Part shown: positions 26,718 through 36,534 of the stretch, piece by piece
Position numbering within the stretch: the first letter of the stretch is position 1
Layout: each line of letters starts with the position of its first letter
From: Helicobacter cetorum
GTDB lineage: Bacteria > Campylobacterota > Campylobacteria > Campylobacterales > UBA6016
Length of the DNA stretch: 48,636 nt
NCBI GenBank assembly: GCA_022729705.1
Contig: DZAX01000016.1
Location: forward strand, 1 to 48,636
Direction: 5' to 3'
Notes under the pieces: model-generated
The model's database searches: none
What the model saw: only the letters and a program-made list of their open reading frames with translations
Told to the model about the DNA's origin: nothing
Position numbers and translations under genes: made by a program

Positions 26718-27353
26718 ATGAAACTAGGCTTCCTAGTTGATCTAAGTTTGTGCATAGGATGTAAAGCGTGCGAAGTTGTCTGTAAAGCAGAAAACGTCGT
26801 GCCTTTGTCTATGTGGAGACTTAGAGTCAAATATGTCGATTTCGGCGTCTTCCCCGAGGTTAAGAGAGCGTTTACGCCTCTTAGATGTAATCACTGCGAA
26901 AGCGCTCCCTGTGCTAGGGTTTGCCCTGTAAGCGCGCTTCACTATCTTGATAACGGTATAGTAAATATCGATAAAAATAGATGTATTGGTTGTGCGGCTT
27001 GCGTGCTAGCCTGTCCTTATGGGGCTATCTATATCGATCCTGAGACTAATACGGCCGATAAGTGTACTTATTGCGCTCACAGAGTGGAAGCCGGACTTGC
27101 TCCATCGTGCGTTGTTGTGTGCCCGACTGAGGCGAATATATTTGGAGACCTTGACGATCCGACAAGCAAGATTAGCCATTATATAGCTTCGCACAGAGAC
27201 ACAAGAGTAAGAAAACCTGAAAAAGGCACAATGCCGAAGCATTTTTATGTGGGAGCCGGCGATATTCACCTAAATCCGCTAGCAAGCACAAGAGCCGAAG
27301 GATTTAACCTGTTTAATGAAATCGGACACCTAAATCATGTAGGAGGCCACTGA
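26718..27353 (+). CDS. Four-cluster ferredoxin subunit of a respiratory molybdoenzyme
   Basis: The electron-transfer B subunit, 211 residues, with four [4Fe-4S] motifs: CIGCKACEVVC, CNHCESAPCARVC, CIGCAACVLAC and CTYCAHRVEAGLAPSCVVVC. It carries electrons between the membrane subunit (next gene) and the catalytic subunit, as in PsrB, TtrB and DmsB. It lacks a signal peptide and would be co-exported with the Tat-dependent catalytic subunit. ATG 26718 is chosen for its AAGGAG; the frame extends upstream but that part reads through the inverted repeat. The 3' end overlaps the next start by one base. Confidence 0.93.
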   Translation: MKLGFLVDLSLCIGCKACEVVCKAENVVPLSMWRLRVKYVDFGVFPEVKRAFTPLRCNHCESAPCARVCPVSALHYLDNGIVNIDKNRCIGCAACVLACPYGAIYIDPETNTADKCTYCAHRVEAGLAPSCVVVCPTEANIFGDLDDPTSKISHYIASHRDTRVRKPEKGTMPKHFYVGAGDIHLNPLASTRAEGFNLFNEIGHLNHVGGH

Positions 27354-28264
27354 TGATATTTGAATCACTCGTAGCCAATGTTCCGGTTCTTAAATCGGCT
27401 ATTGTAACCCTAGACGTGCTTTTTACGCAAGTGGCGTGGGGTTGGATAATCGTCATGAATATGTGGGCGAAATCTATTGCGACGGGCGTATTTTTTGTTG
27501 GTATTTATATGATGAAAAAGTATCCGACAAACGAAAATTTCTATAAATACTTGATTCCTATCATAGCTATCGTATTTGTCGGGATTACATTGCTGTTTAC
27601 GGTTATTGACCTTCATAAGCCGTTTCGCGCGTTTTATATATTCCTTCACTCGCACTTTACGTCGGCGATTACTTGGGGCGCATGGTTTATCAACCTCTAT
27701 TCGCTAGTTCTTGTGTTGTGGCTTTGGGCTGTTGTCAAAAAAGATGAAAAGCTCTTCTCAAAGCTTATTATTCCGGGGATTGTTATAGCGTTTATGACTA
27801 CCGTCTATACAGCCGGACTTATGGGTCTTTCAAATGCCAGAGAGATATGGCAAGCTCCGACAGAGATAGTTCAAATGTTGCTTTCAGCCGCCTTAGCGGG
27901 AAGCGCCGTACTGTTGCTTGCCGGAAAATTCAATCTTGACAATGAGCAAAAATTAAAGCTAGGAACAATCCTTGGCTCCGCCGCCTTACTTTCGCTTATT
28001 GTGTATGTCTCAGAGCTTATTTTTGCGCCTATAAAATCTGAAGAAGCCGAGTGGGTTGTTCACTATATAACAAGCGGCGGTATGGCCGTTTATTTTGCGC
28101 TAGGGCTTACGCTTGCATTTTTGGTTCCCGCAGCGTTGGCGTTTGTATCAAATAAAACAAAAAATTCAATGTTCCTGCTTCCCGCCGCCGTGTTAGCGCT
28201 TGTAGGACTTTGGATGGTAAAACATGCGTGGCTGATAGCTCCGCAGATGATGCCTTTGAGTTAA
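27353..28264 (+). CDS. NrfD/PsrC-family membrane quinone-reacting subunit
   Basis: The membrane anchor (C subunit) of the molybdoenzyme, 303 residues with about eight to nine hydrophobic helices, for example LIPIIAIVFVGITLLFTVID and LILVLWLWAVV-like segments. NrfD/PsrC proteins exchange electrons with quinone without heme. The helix order and the DLHKPFRAFYIF segment after helix 3 fit this family. The gene order B-C-A matches tetrathionate reductase (ttrBCA) rather than psrABC. Confidence 0.88.
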   Translation: MIFESLVANVPVLKSAIVTLDVLFTQVAWGWIIVMNMWAKSIATGVFFVGIYMMKKYPTNENFYKYLIPIIAIVFVGITLLFTVIDLHKPFRAFYIFLHSHFTSAITWGAWFINLYSLVLVLWLWAVVKKDEKLFSKLIIPGIVIAFMTTVYTAGLMGLSNAREIWQAPTEIVQMLLSAALAGSAVLLLAGKFNLDNEQKLKLGTILGSAALLSLIVYVSELIFAPIKSEEAEWVVHYITSGGMAVYFALGLTLAFLVPAALAFVSNKTKNSMFLLPAAVLALVGLWMVKHAWLIAPQMMPLS

Positions 28265-28278
28265 GGGAGTAAAGAAGA

Positions 28279-31200
28279 ATGATAAAAAGAAGAGACTTTC
28301 TAAAACTATCCGTTGTAGGAGCGGGCGTTGGCGTTGTGGCGAGCGGAGCCATAAAATCGTTTATCCCAACGCTTGAAGCGGGAGCGGATGTTAAAACGTT
28401 TGACAAACTGCCGGTATCAAATGGAAACTTTGCATACTATCCGCCGTTTGATAAGTGGGGCTCGTGGAAAGAGATGGACGGCGACGATTGGAAAAACGGC
28501 GGCATAGCTAGACACGACGTAAAAGTACATGATTATATGCTGGTTCCAACGGCGTGTAACAACTGTGAAGCGGCTTGCGGCCTTCTTGCATATGTAGACA
28601 AAGAGACGATGACGGTCAAAAAAATCCTTGGAAACCCACTACACACAGCGTCTCTAGGGCGAACGTGTGCTAAAGGCGTGGCGTCGTATAGCCAGATGTA
28701 TGACCCTGATAGAATCCCTTTTCCAATCAAAAGAGCCCCGGGCTCAAAAAGAGGCGAGGGCAAGTGGGTCAGAACTACATGGGATGAAGCGCTTACGACT
28801 ATTGGTAAAAAAATAAGCGATACGCTAAAAAGTGGAGACGCAACTAGCAAAAAATCTATCATGTATCACGTCGGTCGTCCAAACGAGAATGGCTTTACGC
28901 CAAGAGTGTGGCATACGCTAGGTCAAGATTGTACAAATTCACACACAAATATCTGTTCGGGCAACGGCAGGTCGAGCAATCTTATGTGGACAAACGACGA
29001 CAGAACCGCACCGGATTGGGCAAACTCAAAGCTTATACTTCTTGCCTCTTCTCATGCGGCGGATGCGGGTCACTACTTTCAACAATCAGCCGGACAGATA
29101 GCAAAAGCTAGAAAAGCGGGCGCAAAACTTGTAGTTATCGACCCTAGGATGTCAAACTCCGCAGGTATTGCAGACCTATGGATAGCGGCGTGGCCTGGTA
29201 CTGAAGCGGCTATCTATATGGCTATTGTAAATAGACTTCTAACAGAAAACAAATTTGACGCAAAATTTGTCAAAGATTGGTACAACTGGCAAACTCTGAT
29301 GGACGACAAAGCGTATTTGGAGTTTATCAAAAAAGAGGGCTTTATCACCGAGTTTCCAAAAGACGGAAGCTTTGAGAGTTTTGTAGAACTAATGAAAGAT
29401 ATGTGCAAAGACTATACGATGGAGTGGGCTTCAAAAGAGAGCCACGTTCCCCTTGATAGACTTGAAAAACTATACGAGTACTTCATTTGGGCGGGTAGTC
29501 AAATTACCGCATTTAACTGGAGAGGTCCATCGGCTGGAAACAGAGGTGGATGGATGTATGGCAAAAATATGATATTTGCTCTCTCCCTTGTCGGCTCTAT
29601 GCAAGGCAAAGGGCAACTCGGCTTTGAGCATCTAAAAGCCATATCTATCGCCGGAAAAGGCGGCAAATCATGCGTAGGCGAAAAAGCTCCAAATGTAGAT
29701 GAGTGGAATGAGCTTAGCTGGCCGCCTGAGTGGCCTCTTGCGAGCTTTGAGCCGTCTATGTGTCTTCCACATCTTTTGGCTGATACTGCATGGCAAGAGA
29801 AGTGGAAAGCAAAAGGGCTTACTGTGCCTAGTAAACTATCCATTTGGTTTCCAAGGATGTACAATCCGGCGTGGATAAATCCAGATGGCTTTAGATGGAT
29901 CGATGTGCTAAAAGATGAAACTAAGATGGAGCTAACGGTAAACCCATCTCCAACATGGTCTGAAACAAACTGGTACATGGACTACATCTTACCGACTGGT
30001 CTTGCCGCCGAGAGACACGATCAACACTCTGAGGCGTCAAAGCCTGAAGCGTGGACGAGCTTCCGTCAACCGGTTTTAAGGGTAATGCTAGAAAAAAATG
30101 GCTGGAAACCAAAAAATCCGGCAAGGGCAACTCTTGAAGCGCACATGAAAGCAGGTCTTGGCGAAATTTGGGAAGAAAACGAGATGTGGATAAACCTTGT
30201 GTTTGCCGCAGACCCTGACGGTAGCCTTGGCATTAGAAAATATTGGGAGTCGCTAGCAAATCCGGATAAACCTGTTACGATAGCGGAGTATTACAACGCC
30301 GCATTTGCAAACTTACCAAACCTTGTAAAAGCATCTGCCGCCGCGCTTGAGCAAAAAGTCAAAAATGCAAAAACTCCTCTTGAAAAAGAGCTTGCCGAAT
30401 TTGCTCAAAAATTCCCGCACTATGACTTTATGAGAGATAGAGGCACATGGACGGAGAGAACCAACGTATATGACATATACAAAAAAGAGCTTCACACAGA
30501 TCATGAAAAGCATACGTTAAAAACAAGAGCGATGCAGTTTTGGCAAGCGCCTGTAGAGTATCCGGTTGCAAATATCAAAGTAGATCCTAGAACAAACGTC
30601 GCTTACGTACAAACGCCTGAGGGCAAACACAATGTGGGCGTACAGTACGAGGGCAAGCTAGTGGATGGCTTTGAGACTCCGAGCAAAAAACTTGATTTTT
30701 ATGTTGATTGGATGAAGGATTGGGGATGGCCTGAGTACGCTATTCCTATGTATCCGAAAAACGACGAGCAGAAGAAAAAGTATGAACATGTGACAAGCCA
30801 TGTAAATCACATGTACATGAAAGAGCCAAACGCATTTGCGCTTAATCCAATATTTAGACTTCCGTACAATATCCATACGAGAAGCGTAAACTCAAAATGG
30901 CTTATGGAAATCAGCCAAAACCATAATCCGGTATGGATGGCTCCCGGCGACGCTAAAAAACTTGGCGTAAAAACGGGCGACGCTATAAAGGTAAAAATAC
31001 AAGATGTTGTAACAGGTCTTGAGGGCGGCTACTTTGTCGGTATGTGTGTTGTTACGGAGGGCATATTGCCGGGGACGCTCACATGCTCGCACCATGCGGG
31101 AAGATGGAGACTTGTTGATAATGTGCAAATTCCAGGCTTTGAACAACCGCTTGTGGTTATGGGCGCGGGAGCCCCTATTGCTGAACTTAAAAAAGAGGGC

Positions 31201-31611
31201 GAAAACTACTCTTTAAAATACAAAGACGGTATTAAACCGCAAGATGTAAAAGAGTCAAAAGAGTTTGGCGCGCACGGTTGGCCGTATGCTGAATTTAATA
31301 AAGATATGAAACATGTTCACTGGAACGGTCTAAGCGGCACATTCCAAAATGCGACATTCTCTTCAAATCCAGACCCGGTAAGCGCCGCGCAATGCTGGCA
31401 CAAAAAAGTACTTGTTGAAAAAGCGGGTTCAAACGATAAGATTGGCGATGTGAAAGTAAACATCGAAAATAATATGAAAATATTCCAAGGCTGGAGAGAC
31501 AAACTAACTCGTCCGGCTCCAGGACCAGGCGGTCTAAGAAGACCAGAGCATCTTAAACGCCCATGGGTTCCTCTAACAAGAGAAGCCTATAAAATGCCTA
31601 CAAAAGCGTAA
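28279..31611 (+). CDS. Molybdopterin (bis-PGD) oxidoreductase catalytic subunit
   Basis: A 1110-residue DMSO-reductase-superfamily enzyme. A Tat signal opens it (RRDFLKLSVVGAGVGVVAS). The N-terminal [4Fe-4S] motif is CNNCEAAC with a fourth Cys in RTCAKG. HTNICSGNGRSSN probably supplies a cysteine Mo ligand, as in polysulfide and thiosulfate reductases. The C-terminal molybdopterin-binding domain starts near PNAFALNPIFRLPYNIHTRS. With the NrfD-type anchor this places it near PsrA/PhsA/TtrA/SoeA enzymes acting on inorganic sulfur compounds; the substrate and direction cannot be fixed by eye. It is longer than typical PsrA (about 760 residues). Confidence 0.9.
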   Translation: MIKRRDFLKLSVVGAGVGVVASGAIKSFIPTLEAGADVKTFDKLPVSNGNFAYYPPFDKWGSWKEMDGDDWKNGGIARHDVKVHDYMLVPTACNNCEAACGLLAYVDKETMTVKKILGNPLHTASLGRTCAKGVASYSQMYDPDRIPFPIKRAPGSKRGEGKWVRTTWDEALTTIGKKISDTLKSGDATSKKSIMYHVGRPNENGFTPRVWHTLGQDCTNSHTNICSGNGRSSNLMWTNDDRTAPDWANSKLILLASSHAADAGHYFQQSAGQIAKARKAGAKLVVIDPRMSNSAGIADLWIAAWPGTEAAIYMAIVNRLLTENKFDAKFVKDWYNWQTLMDDKAYLEFIKKEGFITEFPKDGSFESFVELMKDMCKDYTMEWASKESHVPLDRLEKLYEYFIWAGSQITAFNWRGPSAGNRGGWMYGKNMIFALSLVGSMQGKGQLGFEHLKAISIAGKGGKSCVGEKAPNVDEWNELSWPPEWPLASFEPSMCLPHLLADTAWQEKWKAKGLTVPSKLSIWFPRMYNPAWINPDGFRWIDVLKDETKMELTVNPSPTWSETNWYMDYILPTGLAAERHDQHSEASKPEAWTSFRQPVLRVMLEKNGWKPKNPARATLEAHMKAGLGEIWEENEMWINLVFAADPDGSLGIRKYWESLANPDKPVTIAEYYNAAFANLPNLVKASAAALEQKVKNAKTPLEKELAEFAQKFPHYDFMRDRGTWTERTNVYDIYKKELHTDHEKHTLKTRAMQFWQAPVEYPVANIKVDPRTNVAYVQTPEGKHNVGVQYEGKLVDGFETPSKKLDFYVDWMKDWGWPEYAIPMYPKNDEQKKKYEHVTSHVNHMYMKEPNAFALNPIFRLPYNIHTRSVNSKWLMEISQNHNPVWMAPGDAKKLGVKTGDAIKVKIQDVVTGLEGGYFVGMCVVTEGILPGTLTCSHHAGRWRLVDNVQIPGFEQPLVVMGAGAPIAELKKEGENYSLKYKDGIKPQDVKESKEFGAHGWPYAEFNKDMKHVHWNGLSGTFQNATFSSNPDPVSAAQCWHKKVLVEKAGSNDKIGDVKVNIENNMKIFQGWRDKLTRPAPGPGGLRRPEHLKRPWVPLTREAYKMPTKA

Positions 31612-31620
31612 AAGTTTTTT

Positions 31621-31664
31621 CCAAAGCCGTGTAATAGCGGTTTTGGATTAATTTTTATTTTTTT
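31621..31664 (+). terminator. Rho-independent terminator after the molybdoenzyme gene
   Basis: A 9-bp stem, CCAAAGCCG (31621-31629) with CGGTTTTGG (31638-31646), one G-T pair and an 8-nt loop, is followed by a T-rich run to 31664. It lies 9 bp after the stop codon and before the chaperone gene, so the accessory genes are probably expressed at a lower level by read-through or from their own promoter. Confidence 0.65.
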
Positions 31665-31713
31665 AAGCCGTAATCGCTTACGATTTACAAAAATAAAAGG
31701 GGGTGTATGAAAA

Positions 31714-32340
31714 TTGCAAAATAGCGAACGATTGAGAGAGTTTTATTATACCCTCATCTCAAGACTCCTTGTCTCAGAGATAGATAAAGATACGATAGAG
31801 GCTATAAAAAGCGACGACGGACTTTTGGAGCTTTTTGTTTATTCAAAAGAAGCGGATGATTATTTGAGCGCTGATACGCAAAAGATAGTTGAGGATTTAG
31901 CGGCTCATTATGTTGATTTGTTCTTAATACGTCTTATTTCATATGAGAGCTTTTTCACCTCAGAAGATCAAATGGTAAATTCCGGCACTGAGAATGAAAC
32001 GCTTATTTTTTACACCAAATATGGCTTTGAAGTAGAGCTTCTAAAAGCTAGAGTTGTATCTGGTGATCATATAGGCGTTGAGTTTGAGTTTTTGATGAAC
32101 CTAATTAAAAGCGAAAGAGACGCTTTGGCGGACGGCGACGACGAGTATGCAAAACAGATAAGAAACGTTCAGCAAGAGTTTATGCAAAAACACTTATTGC
32201 CTTTTGCGCTTATGTTTTTACCGGCTCTTGTCGAGGCGTCAAAATCGCCGTTTTATAAAGATGTTGCGGAGATTGCGTTGGAGTTTTTGCTTACCGATTA
32301 TGAGGAGCTTTGCCGTTATGAGCATAACTGTAGCTCATGA
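31714..32340 (+). CDS. TorD/DmsD-like molybdoenzyme chaperone
   Basis: A 208-residue all-helical protein with the family pattern LREFYYTLISRLL at the N-terminus and HIGVEFEFLMNLI in the centre (compare the usual HIxxELEFM). Such chaperones bind the Tat signal of their molybdoenzyme and hold it until the cofactor is loaded; the partner here is presumably the 1110-residue subunit upstream. The only in-frame start after a stop is TTG 31714. A mini-ORF, ATG AAA ATT GCA AAA TAG at 31707-31724, overlaps it and sits closer to the ribosome site AAGGGGG, so initiation may be indirect or weak. Confidence 0.83.
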   Translation: MQNSERLREFYYTLISRLLVSEIDKDTIEAIKSDDGLLELFVYSKEADDYLSADTQKIVEDLAAHYVDLFLIRLISYESFFTSEDQMVNSGTENETLIFYTKYGFEVELLKARVVSGDHIGVEFEFLMNLIKSERDALADGDDEYAKQIRNVQQEFMQKHLLPFALMFLPALVEASKSPFYKDVAEIALEFLLTDYEELCRYEHNCSS

Positions 32341-33343
32341 GAGTTGCGTAAGGCTTCTTAGTATAAAAAGCGAGTGTACTAAATGTGTGGAGGCTTGCTT
32401 TTTTGATGCGCTCTCGTTTGCAAACTCAATTTTAAGGCTCAAAACTCCGTCTTGCACAAGTTGCGGCGCATGCGTCGGCGTTTGTCCGACAGGGGCTATA
32501 ACGCTTTTTTCATTTGAGGGGCTTGCGTCTATAGTCGCAAGTAAAGATGAATTTACGTTTGGGGCAAATGAAGATGGTTTTTTGCCTGAAGCTTTTTCGT
32601 CCGATGAGTTTTTTGCGCTTGCCGCTATCTCAAAAAATGGCTTTTTTGCGGAACTTGAAGATGGCTCCTCAGCTCTTAGCCGAATAGAAGAGGCAAATCG
32701 TCTGCTAGGCTCGTTTGGAGTTCACAAAGAGATACAGATAGTCGAGGCGCCGCAAAAAATGCCAAAAGAGAGTTTGCAAGACGACTCCAAAAGAGCTTTG
32801 TTTAGACTTTTTACCAAAGAGGGCGTTAAAGAAAAAAGCGACAGCTTAAAAAATAACGATGAGTTTATAAACGAAAATGAGCTAACGGTAGATTATGCAA
32901 GACTAAGAGCCAAAAAAATACCGTTTAAAAGAGAGCTTTTTTTGGGTGTTGTGGAGAAGCTTGAAATTACCGATAAAAACGCTGACTACGCTCTCTCTTT
33001 TGCAAGCGATAAGCACATAGACGACACATGCGACAACTGCTCTCTTTGCTACAACCTTTGCCCAAGCGGAGCTTTGGAAGTTACGGGTATGAAAAACGCG
33101 ATAGTTTTTAGCCCGCATTTGTGCCTTAAGTGTCGTCTTTGCGAAGATGTATGCGAGACAAAATCGATTAGTTCGCTTCCATCCTTTACACTTTTGGCGT
33201 TTAAAGAGAAGCAAAAAAAACTACTCAAAAAATTTAAAGCAAGACTTTGCGTCTCATGCGGCGCCGTATTTAGCGGGGACGATGAAGAGTGCAATAGATG
33301 CAAAGCCGAGAGTGAAGACGCAAGGGAGCTTTTAGGATTATGA
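32318..33343 (+). CDS. Polyferredoxin-like 4Fe-4S protein with zinc ribbon
   Basis: A 341-residue soluble protein with paired Fe-S motifs at both ends: CTKCVEAC and CTSCGACVGVCPTG near the N-terminus, CDNCSLCYNLCPSG and CLKCRLCEDVC near the C-terminus, then CVSCGAVFSGDDEECNRC, a zinc-ribbon-like CxxC pair. The middle (about 70-225) is charged and has no recognised domain. Proteins of this kind accompany formate dehydrogenase and other molybdoenzyme operons in Campylobacterota, function unknown. ATG 32318 overlaps the chaperone gene by 23 bp; the frame is open further upstream, but that part is inside the chaperone. Confidence 0.8.
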   Translation: MSITVAHESCVRLLSIKSECTKCVEACFFDALSFANSILRLKTPSCTSCGACVGVCPTGAITLFSFEGLASIVASKDEFTFGANEDGFLPEAFSSDEFFALAAISKNGFFAELEDGSSALSRIEEANRLLGSFGVHKEIQIVEAPQKMPKESLQDDSKRALFRLFTKEGVKEKSDSLKNNDEFINENELTVDYARLRAKKIPFKRELFLGVVEKLEITDKNADYALSFASDKHIDDTCDNCSLCYNLCPSGALEVTGMKNAIVFSPHLCLKCRLCEDVCETKSISSLPSFTLLAFKEKQKKLLKKFKARLCVSCGAVFSGDDEECNRCKAESEDARELLGL

Positions 33344-33792
33344 TAGCCAAAACGACAAGACTATTCGCATTAGTCGGCGCAGACCTCGCCGCAAATAGGC
33401 TTTATCAGATGTACAACTATATTTTTGAGTCAAACGGTGTTGATGCGTCTTTTGTGAATATCAGCGTACCAGATTCAAAAATGCGCTTTACGCTTGAAAA
33501 CATAGCAAATAGCGAGATAGAGTCTGTACTGCTTACCCAATCAGCGGCAAACCTGAAAGAGGTTAGAGAGTTTTTTAGTGTTGAGGACTTTGTAGTTAGA
33601 ATAGATATAAAAAACGGTAAAGCTGAGCCGATATGCGCCAAAATTGCGCCTTGCGAAGATGAAGACAGCTTATTAGAGACCGCAAGACTAAACTTTTTTG
33701 AGTGGTTCGGCTTTTTCCCACTGCTGCCGGAGGATACGCTAAAGACATTAAAAGAGAGTGCCCCAAGAAATAGCATATTGACAAGGGAGTAG
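33340..33792 (+). CDS. Unknown 150-residue protein of the molybdoenzyme operon
   Basis: Starts inside the stop codon of the polyferredoxin gene (ATGA), so translation is coupled. The first 75 residues (RLFALVGADLAANRLYQMYN, then VDASFVNISVPDSKMRFT) faintly resemble the N-terminal substrate domain of shikimate dehydrogenases, but the NADP-binding domain is absent and this could be coincidence. It has no signal peptide and no membrane segment. The operon position suggests a maturation or regulatory role for the molybdoenzyme. The family is not recognised with confidence. Confidence 0.7.
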   Translation: MIAKTTRLFALVGADLAANRLYQMYNYIFESNGVDASFVNISVPDSKMRFTLENIANSEIESVLLTQSAANLKEVREFFSVEDFVVRIDIKNGKAEPICAKIAPCEDEDSLLETARLNFFEWFGFFPLLPEDTLKTLKESAPRNSILTRE

Positions 33793-33804
33793 CATTAAAA
33801 ATCT

Positions 33805-33830
33805 GCCGCTTTATGCGGCTAGCTTTGCCC
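33805..33830 (-). repeat. Partial copy I of the three-hairpin repeat family (reversed)
   Basis: On the minus strand GGGCAAAGCTA precedes the hairpin GCCGC/GCGGC (33805-33819), matching the family linker end AAGCTA and third hairpin. It lies in the 71-bp gap between two genes of the molybdoenzyme accessory operon. Confidence 0.5.
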
Positions 33831-33863
33831 ATCCTTCGTACAATCAAATAAAGGAGTTAAAAA

Positions 33864-34214
33864 ATGGAAGAAGACTCAAAACTAACTAAATATATATTAT
33901 CGCCAAGCCTAAGCGGCGTTTATGTCTCAAAATCAGATTTGCAGCTTGTAGCCGCTATATGCGGTTACTCTTTGCAGGTGCAAGAGCGAAAGAGAATGCT
34001 AAAAGAGCTGTTTGCTCTTGTTCATAATGTCGATGATTTTTGCAAGATTATTGATGCGTTTGTCGGCTTTTTTGAGTATAAAAAAGATATGTACAAAGGT
34101 GTGGCACATGAATATCCGGGGACAACCCTTGTGGTAAACTCTCTTTTAAGCAGAGCCGACGAAGCTTTGGTCGAGCTAAAAAAGGCAAAAGAAGAGGCGG
34201 AGTTAATCTCTTAA
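33864..34214 (+). CDS. Unknown small helical protein, 116 residues
   Basis: A charged, largely helical soluble protein without recognised motifs. The frame begins M-E-E-D-S-K-L-T-K after AAGGAG at 33851-33856. A TorD-like helical character (LVAAICGYSLQVQERKRMLK, then KDMYKGVAHEYPGT) is possible but not convincing. It closes the plus-strand molybdoenzyme accessory group and is separated from it by a repeat fragment, so membership in the operon is inferred from spacing only. Confidence 0.65.
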   Translation: MEEDSKLTKYILSPSLSGVYVSKSDLQLVAAICGYSLQVQERKRMLKELFALVHNVDDFCKIIDAFVGFFEYKKDMYKGVAHEYPGTTLVVNSLLSRADEALVELKKAKEEAELIS

Positions 34215-36063: not shown

Positions 36064-36534
36064 ATGGCACTAAAAAAAAGAGTTTTGTTTTTGTGCGGTA
36101 AGAATGAGGCTAGAAGCCAGATAGCTGAGGCTTTTTTGAACTCTTTGGCGGGTGATACTTTTGAAGCCTACAGCGGCGGACAAGAGATTGGCGAGCTAAA
36201 TCAATTTGCTGTTAGAGCGATGAATGAAATAGGTATTGATATATCCAAAAATGAGAGTAAAAAAGCAATTAAGTTTTTTCGAGACAGCAGAACATACAAC
36301 TATGTAATTACGATTTGGGATAACAAAAAAGACTCAAATCACCCTATATTTCCCGGCGTTACACAAAGAAGACACTGGATTATCGACGACATAGCCAAAT
36401 TTGACTCGCTTGGCGAAGAGGGGCAGATGGAGAAGATGAGGAGTATTAGAGACCAAATCAAACAAAAAGTAGTCGAATGGGTTGCAAATCCTCAGGAAGA
36501 AGACTATATAGATCCTATAATACTTATTGGCTGA
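36064..36534 (+). CDS. ArsC/low-molecular-weight phosphatase-fold protein lacking redox cysteines
   Basis: The catalytic P-loop CGKNEARS (C11, R17) and the general acid region HWIIDD are those of thioredoxin-coupled arsenate reductases and low-molecular-weight tyrosine phosphatases. In ArsC two further cysteines form the disulfide relay in a segment like TLCxxxxxxCP; here it reads TIWDNKKDSNHP (83-94) with no cysteine. The protein therefore should not work by the classical ArsC relay, and may be a phosphatase or a glutaredoxin-independent variant. 156 residues is slightly long. It has its own upstream region, divergent from cobU, with AAGGAG before ATG 36064. Confidence 0.8.
   Translation: MALKKRVLFLCGKNEARSQIAEAFLNSLAGDTFEAYSGGQEIGELNQFAVRAMNEIGIDISKNESKKAIKFFRDSRTYNYVITIWDNKKDSNHPIFPGVTQRRHWIIDDIAKFDSLGEEGQMEKMRSIRDQIKQKVVEWVANPQEEDYIDPIILIG

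Follow-up and report, generated by a model that had tools for sequence, protein, structure and literature searches.

The window, which is the whole stretch of 48,636 nucleotides analysed here (Helicobacter cetorum, contig DZAX01000016.1), carries on its forward strand a compact operon of seven co-directional genes, most of which touch or overlap (positions 26718-34214). A purine-rich stretch resembling a Shine-Dalgarno sequence precedes each of the seven genes. The operon begins with an iron-sulfur subunit (B), a membrane anchor (C) and a large catalytic molybdoenzyme subunit (A), followed by accessory genes (Table 1). This iron-sulfur-anchor-catalytic (B-C-A) operon, recognised in a first-pass annotation, is real and its coordinates are exact.

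Table 1. Features of the operon in the window. Unk names follow the family assignment made below.
Feature	Position	Strand	Description
Subunit B (UnkB)	26718..27353	+	211 aa, ferredoxin-type, electron transfer; 16 Cys for four 4Fe-4S clusters
Subunit C (UnkC)	27353..28264	+	303 aa, NrfD/PsrC-type quinone-interacting membrane anchor; PF03916, E=6.8e-19
Subunit A (UnkA)	28279..31611	+	1110 aa, molybdo-bis-PGD catalytic subunit, Tat; PF00384, PF04879, PF01568
Tat motif RRDFLK	28288..28305	+	A residues 4-9; R4, R5, F7 and K9 invariant in 30 orthologs
4Fe-4S site C93-x2-C96-x3-C100 ... C130	28555..28668	+	in A; invariant columns in 30 orthologs
Pocket motif HVGRPN	28867..28884	+	A residues 197-202
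Cys226 codon	28954..28956	+	in A, within S-H-T-N-I-C; invariant in 30 orthologs
TorD/NarJ-family maturation chaperone	31714..32340	+	208 aa, TTG start; PF02613, E=1.6e-16
Polyferredoxin	32318..33343	+	341 aa; three CxxCxxCxxxC motifs and one N-terminal cluster
150-aa protein	33340..33792	+	lone N-terminal (substrate-binding) domain of shikimate dehydrogenase fold, without NADP domain
116-aa accessory protein	33864..34214	+	last gene of the operon; orthologs equally placed in many operons

Subunit B is devoid of a Tat signal and starts with MKLGFLVDL, which is kept in its orthologs. Subunit C has multiple hydrophobic segments, and its Pfam match agrees with the NrfD-type anchor proposed at first reading. 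In subunit A, Pfam identifies Fe4S4, molybdopterin and dinucleotide-binding domains. Cys226 of A aligns with cysteines of PsrA and ArrA that we take to be the molybdenum ligands of these enzymes; it is probably the ligand in A as well, as had been suggested. The pocket of A contains HVGRPN and SHTNICS...R motifs, which are absent from TtrA, ArrA and PhsA in the alignment. HVGRP and SHTN[IV]CS are common to A and to homologs from Rhodococcus, Thermomicrobium and Natrinema that are associated with a fused B subunit, and S-H-x-x-[IV]-C is common to A and ArrA. The positions equivalent to PsrA His145 and to ArrA Arg165/Tyr166 are not conserved in the aligned A family. A predicted model of A, built on its orthologs (mean pLDDT 71.7, pTM 0.76), is of low confidence precisely where the loops around the cofactor lie (198-202 and 220-233). 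In the PDB, its closest folds are ArrA (TM 0.65 by target) and PsrA (0.69), at 18% identity.

The TorD-like chaperone occupies an equivalent position in orthologous operons, where orthologs of the polyferredoxin and of the 150-residue protein are also present. For the polyferredoxin, the likeliest start is the ATG at 32318, which aligns with the sister species, and the C-terminus of this protein indeed carries a zinc-ribbon-like CxxC...CxxC. The 150-residue protein, whose best PDB match is 2hk9 (E=7.6e-10, profile against PDB), is probably an accessory factor. A lone shikimate dehydrogenase N-terminal domain is thereby conserved as an accessory gene in a molybdoenzyme operon. Beyond the operon, positions 36064-36534 of the window encode a protein resembling low-molecular-weight phosphatases and thioredoxin-type arsenate reductases (87 bits against an ArsC cut-off of 174).

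Family and distribution of the operon

In a search of curated models, no NCBIfam model came near its cut-off for A. The best named model, PhsA, gave 155 bits for a cut-off of 694, followed by DmsA (140/778), ArrA (84/1600) and TtrA (64/1750). In a tree that included TtrA, ArrA, PhsA, DmsA/YnfE and DMSO reductase type II sequences, the A family forms its own clade (SH-aLRT 100), outside TtrA, ArrA, PhsA and DmsA. Its sister is a group from Rhodococcus, Thermomicrobium and Natrinema, and an Azoarcus branch lies outside both; the deeper joins are less sure because some branches are long. The sister proteins have no Tat signal and adjoin an FeS-NrfD fusion (shown with Pfam for Rhodococcus and Natrinema). 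Cut-offs, gene order, the absence of Tat from B and the tree together rule out that the operon belongs to Ttr, Psr/Phs or Arr. DMSO reductase type II enzymes have an aspartate as molybdenum ligand; A, with a cysteine at this position and 112 bits for a TIGR03479 cut-off of 985, is not one of them. Nor is it a formate dehydrogenase (Fdh-alpha models, 102 bits versus 666 and 84 versus 814).

A clade with the B-C-A order was labelled unkA/B/C, its function being unknown (Duval et al., 2008; PMC2500031), and the enzymes were still named "UnkA, unknown reductases" in 2019 (PMC6896113). The lack of an assigned substrate, pointed out in the first-pass annotation, is thus that of a whole family. In the available text of the 2008 study, the clade has a subgroup with a 60-kDa B and without C and Tat, as well as Azoarcus and Dechloromonas outgroups. 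The window operon is almost certainly a member of this Unk (unkBCA) family, an identification that relies on shared defining features (order, Tat pattern, subgroups). Indeed, the B-C-A order, the Tat signal on A, a B subunit of about 26 kDa, the separate C, the Cys molybdenum site and the FeS motif near the N-terminus are all found in that text, together with a neighbouring subgroup having a large fused B without Tat or separate C, and with the Azoarcus outgroup. The operon adds a member to a family that is named yet uncharacterised, and its enzyme is neither of a new kind nor itself characterised. Its placement is clean, in a clade that is itself uncharacterised; no clean placement within a characterised clade was found.

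Full-length orthologs of A (53-89% identity, a few matches being split or partial) are present in 44 of 120 Campylobacterales genomes (G000-G119, the window's genome included), and nothing in these genomes lies between them and local matches of about 34%. With so many related genomes having such orthologs, and with B-C-A-TorD-polyferredoxin as a recurrent order in three phyla, the operon is not a chance arrangement. Full-length orthologs are also found in Aquificota and Myxococcota. GTDB contigs gave 416 relatives, the best 80 of which come from Campylobacterota, Hydrogenothermaceae/Persephonella and Myxococcota. Plasmids supply the relatives of full length that come next: 38% for Rhodococcus jostii RHA1 and Thermomicrobium roseum, 35% for haloarchaea and 27% for Azoarcus KH32C. 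Other plasmid matches were discarded as SoeA references: those annotated (H52, H62, H70, H74) are without the SoeABC arrangement, and H76 is unannotated. In the genus of the window, A groups with Myxococcota (support 100/100) and not with other Campylobacterota, its identity being 63-65% to the former versus 56-61% to the latter (L026-L030, L036); this grouping suggests lateral transfer of at least A.

The B-C-A order is near-universal among the loci examined. Downstream, TorD is found at 38 of 81 loci, the polyferredoxin at 39, the 116-residue protein at 26 and the shikimate-like protein at 13. The accessory set described at first reading (a TorD-like protein, a polyferredoxin with a zinc-ribbon-like end and two more proteins) is conserved in orthologous operons and belongs to the family; the operon is one of a widespread group and no isolated oddity. 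On the plasmid of Sulfurovum mangrovi ST1-3, the catalytic gene is broken up into two ORFs (L106, 8001-11145) with no annotated feature, intact copies occurring elsewhere; a malic-enzyme-like gene and sulfate adenylyltransferase lie downstream. The conserved genes upstream of the operon in Sulfurimonas are housekeeping-like and were judged uninformative.

B-C-A directly follows a type II molybdoenzyme at three loci in Myxococcota and at eight in Aquificota, as well as at one more of the latter that is truncated by the end of its contig. In this adjoining complex, the alpha subunit scores 833 bits for a cut-off of 985 and the beta subunit 546 for 481, while gamma is a fusion with cytochrome c. 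At an annotated Aquificota locus, two rhodaneses and a YeeE/YedE-type sulfur transporter lie upstream of the type II genes. The fused-B homologs adjoin DsrE, TusA and MBL hydrolases, or rhodanese and TauE. Another contig of the window's genome carries a type II cluster homologous to this one, accompanied by a rhodanese, a TorD and a polyferredoxin of its own. There (G000:C40, L136:6210-14430; homologs L143-L147), the order is rhodanese, type II alpha, beta and gamma (cytochrome c), a small protein, TorD and polyferredoxin. A similar TorD/polyferredoxin pair serves the type II partner, and the link with formate dehydrogenase initially drawn from the accessory set is therefore unneeded. The type II cluster adjoins soxB in one Campylobacterales genome or family.

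Co-occurrence with sulfur-oxidation genes and proposed function

By Fisher tests that ignore relatedness, in a panel where MAGs are incomplete and with SoxY, SoxB and SoxC models that may miss diverged forms, Unk (44 genomes) and the type II complex (42) occur together in 31 of the 120 genomes (OR 14, p=1e-9). Type II or SoxC is present in 42 of the 44 genomes with Unk versus 29 of the 76 without it (p=1e-10). SoxC above cut-off is found in none of the 31 genomes having both Unk and type II versus 11 of the 13 having Unk without type II (p=1e-8). This switch is not a single event because it is repeated inside three families (f6, f7, f17). Among genomes with SoxB, type II is present in 10 of 11 without SoxC versus 1 of 24 with SoxC, and the type II cluster is a candidate replacement for SoxCD. 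Across the 120 genomes, Unk is not associated with SoxB (p=0.21) or, overall, with SorA (p=1). A SorA-like sulfite oxidase also occurs in 7 of the 44 genomes with Unk; among those with type II it is found in 3 of 31 having Unk versus 5 of 11 lacking it (p=0.02), a weak result. Both Unk and type II are present in the window's genome, whose listed completeness is 100%, and model searches detected no SoxB, SoxC/SorA or SoxY in it. Its lack of AprA is weak evidence because AprA gave no match in any genome searched, controls included.

From the neighbours of Unk and of its homologs in four independent settings (Aquificota, Myxococcota, Rhodococcus and haloarchaea), the substrate is very probably a sulfur compound. 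The enzyme probably works in the oxidative direction, in view of its co-occurrence with SoxC or type II and of the pocket shared with cytoplasmic homologs of Rhodococcus, Thermomicrobium and Natrinema, which are aerobes. On the other hand, many NrfD-type BCA relatives are reductases. Sulfite as the specific substrate (sulfite:quinone) can be put forward tentatively. Indeed, sulfite is what a sulfane-oxidising partner linked to cytochrome c would leave behind, and its low potential is well matched to the reduction of quinone. In addition, type II genomes less often carry SorA-like enzymes when they have Unk.

We tentatively favour a reading in which UnkBCA is a periplasmic, quinone-linked complex of sulfur oxidation that oxidises sulfite alongside a type II or SoxCD partner. 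Subunit A would be exported to the periplasm, as its Tat signal indicates, B would carry electrons through its four clusters and C, being an NrfD subunit, would exchange them with the quinone pool. TorD, the polyferredoxin, the shikimate-dehydrogenase-like domain and the small protein would take part in maturation. The partner, either type II with its gamma cytochrome c domain or SoxCD, would oxidise sulfane sulfur and send electrons to cytochrome c. This would yield an intermediate of low potential, most probably sulfite, which UnkBCA would oxidise (sulfite to sulfate) while reducing quinone, energy being conserved through the NrfD subunit. A more speculative possibility is that Campylobacterota, Aquificota and Myxococcota share a periplasmic route from sulfur to sulfate that is independent of Sox and so far undescribed, made up of UnkBCA together with the rhodanese-linked type II complex. 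Type II would replace SoxCD and feed cytochrome c, and Unk would pass electrons from sulfite to the quinone pool.

The main rival is reductive polysulfide/thiosulfate respiration. UnkBCA would then be a periplasmic quinol-dependent reductase of polysulfide/S0, thiosulfate or tetrathionate, serving anaerobic respiration of sulfur or the reductive side of sulfur disproportionation. The strong association with SoxC or type II, which are oxidative, the matching pocket motifs in fused-B homologs of aerobes and the unconserved PsrA His145 and ArrA Arg165/Tyr166 positions make this less likely, even if ArrA and PsrA are, among characterised enzymes, the closest in both sequence and fold, NrfD anchors serve mostly reductases (PMC8076601) and an operon carrier, S. 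mangrovi ST1-3, is listed among sulfur disproportionators (PMC12998232). An enzyme that passes electrons to quinone from sulfane sulfur itself (as polysulfide, thiosulfate or rhodanese-bound persulfide) instead of from sulfite would fit the rhodanese and YeeE/YedE neighbours, as well as the presence of Unk in genomes with SorA, where a second sulfite oxidase would be redundant; this reading is nonetheless improbable, since type II or SoxCD already resembles the sulfane-oxidising partner in those genomes. Finally, an Arr/Arx/Srd-like arsenic or selenium oxyanion oxidoreductase, which the ArrA fold match, the shared S-H-x-x-[IV]-C and the arsA/arsB genes beside the distant Azoarcus branch would favour, is highly improbable given the clade separate from ArrA and TtrA, the low ArrA score and the inspected Campylobacterota, Aquificota and Myxococcota Unk operons, which adjoin sulfur genes and no ars gene.

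This most distant Unk-like branch, on plasmid pAZKH of Azoarcus sp. KH32C (L110), has the order B-C-A-TorD-three hypotheticals-polyferredoxin and also adjoins a PhnD-like binding protein and a two-component system; it is possibly an arsenic enzyme.

Comparison with characterised enzymes

The first-pass match with TtrBCA holds for the gene order, and both systems have a large Tat-exported A and an NrfD anchor. Membership in Ttr fails: TtrB carries a Tat signal whereas the window B does not, the pocket motif differs, A is far below the TtrA cut-off and the clade is separate. Campylobacterales TtrA-like proteins (887-982 bits, below the TtrA cut-off) also form a clade separate from A. As regards the lineage of TtrA and of the SrdBCA selenate reductase, two diverged TtrA-like proteins of 1060 and 1155 residues join TtrA and not the A clade. 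As a side observation, a TtrA-like protein of 1155 residues with a ferredoxin-like start (L132:4159-9954, G048:C1) is flanked by two homologous 198-residue proteins with a TusA-like start, an unusual gene set.

PsrABC/PhsABC are similar in subunit types, Cys ligand and fold, and PhsA is the best named sequence model. However, their order is ABC, the position of PsrA His145 is unconserved in the window family and PsrA is about 350 residues shorter than A, a difference in length already noticed at first reading. Sulfurovum indicum PsrA1-4 were rejected as equivalent enzymes, being without Tat and with different Cys positions, and so was the MOLY cluster, which in its full form is confined to Desulfobacterota. 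ArrAB(C) gives the top fold match and has a His-x3-Cys motif beside the molybdenum, but differs by its order (CAB or AB), its clade and the score of A. SoeABC resembles UnkBCA in how it works, through the proposed activity and the NrfD-type quinone coupling. In contrast, SoeA is cytoplasmic and without Tat, and the Tat motif invariant in 30 orthologs of A counters a catalytic subunit of this type; SoeABC is set apart here by these described properties. Unk genes should not be annotated psrA or ttrA.

The Unk family has been without a function since 2008, and the co-occurrence data, together with its presence in apparently Sox-less genomes, now give this orphan a precise hypothesis, open to testing, on how bacteria of vents and sulfidic water oxidise sulfur. 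Compared with the available text of the 2008 study (PMC2500031), in which accessory genes and a type II partner go unmentioned, what is new here is the adjacency and co-occurrence of Unk with a type II complex bearing rhodanese and YeeE/YedE genes, the near-mutually exclusive presence of type II or SoxC in almost all genomes with Unk, and the combination of Unk and type II in the window's genome without detected SoxB, SoxC, SoxY or Sor.
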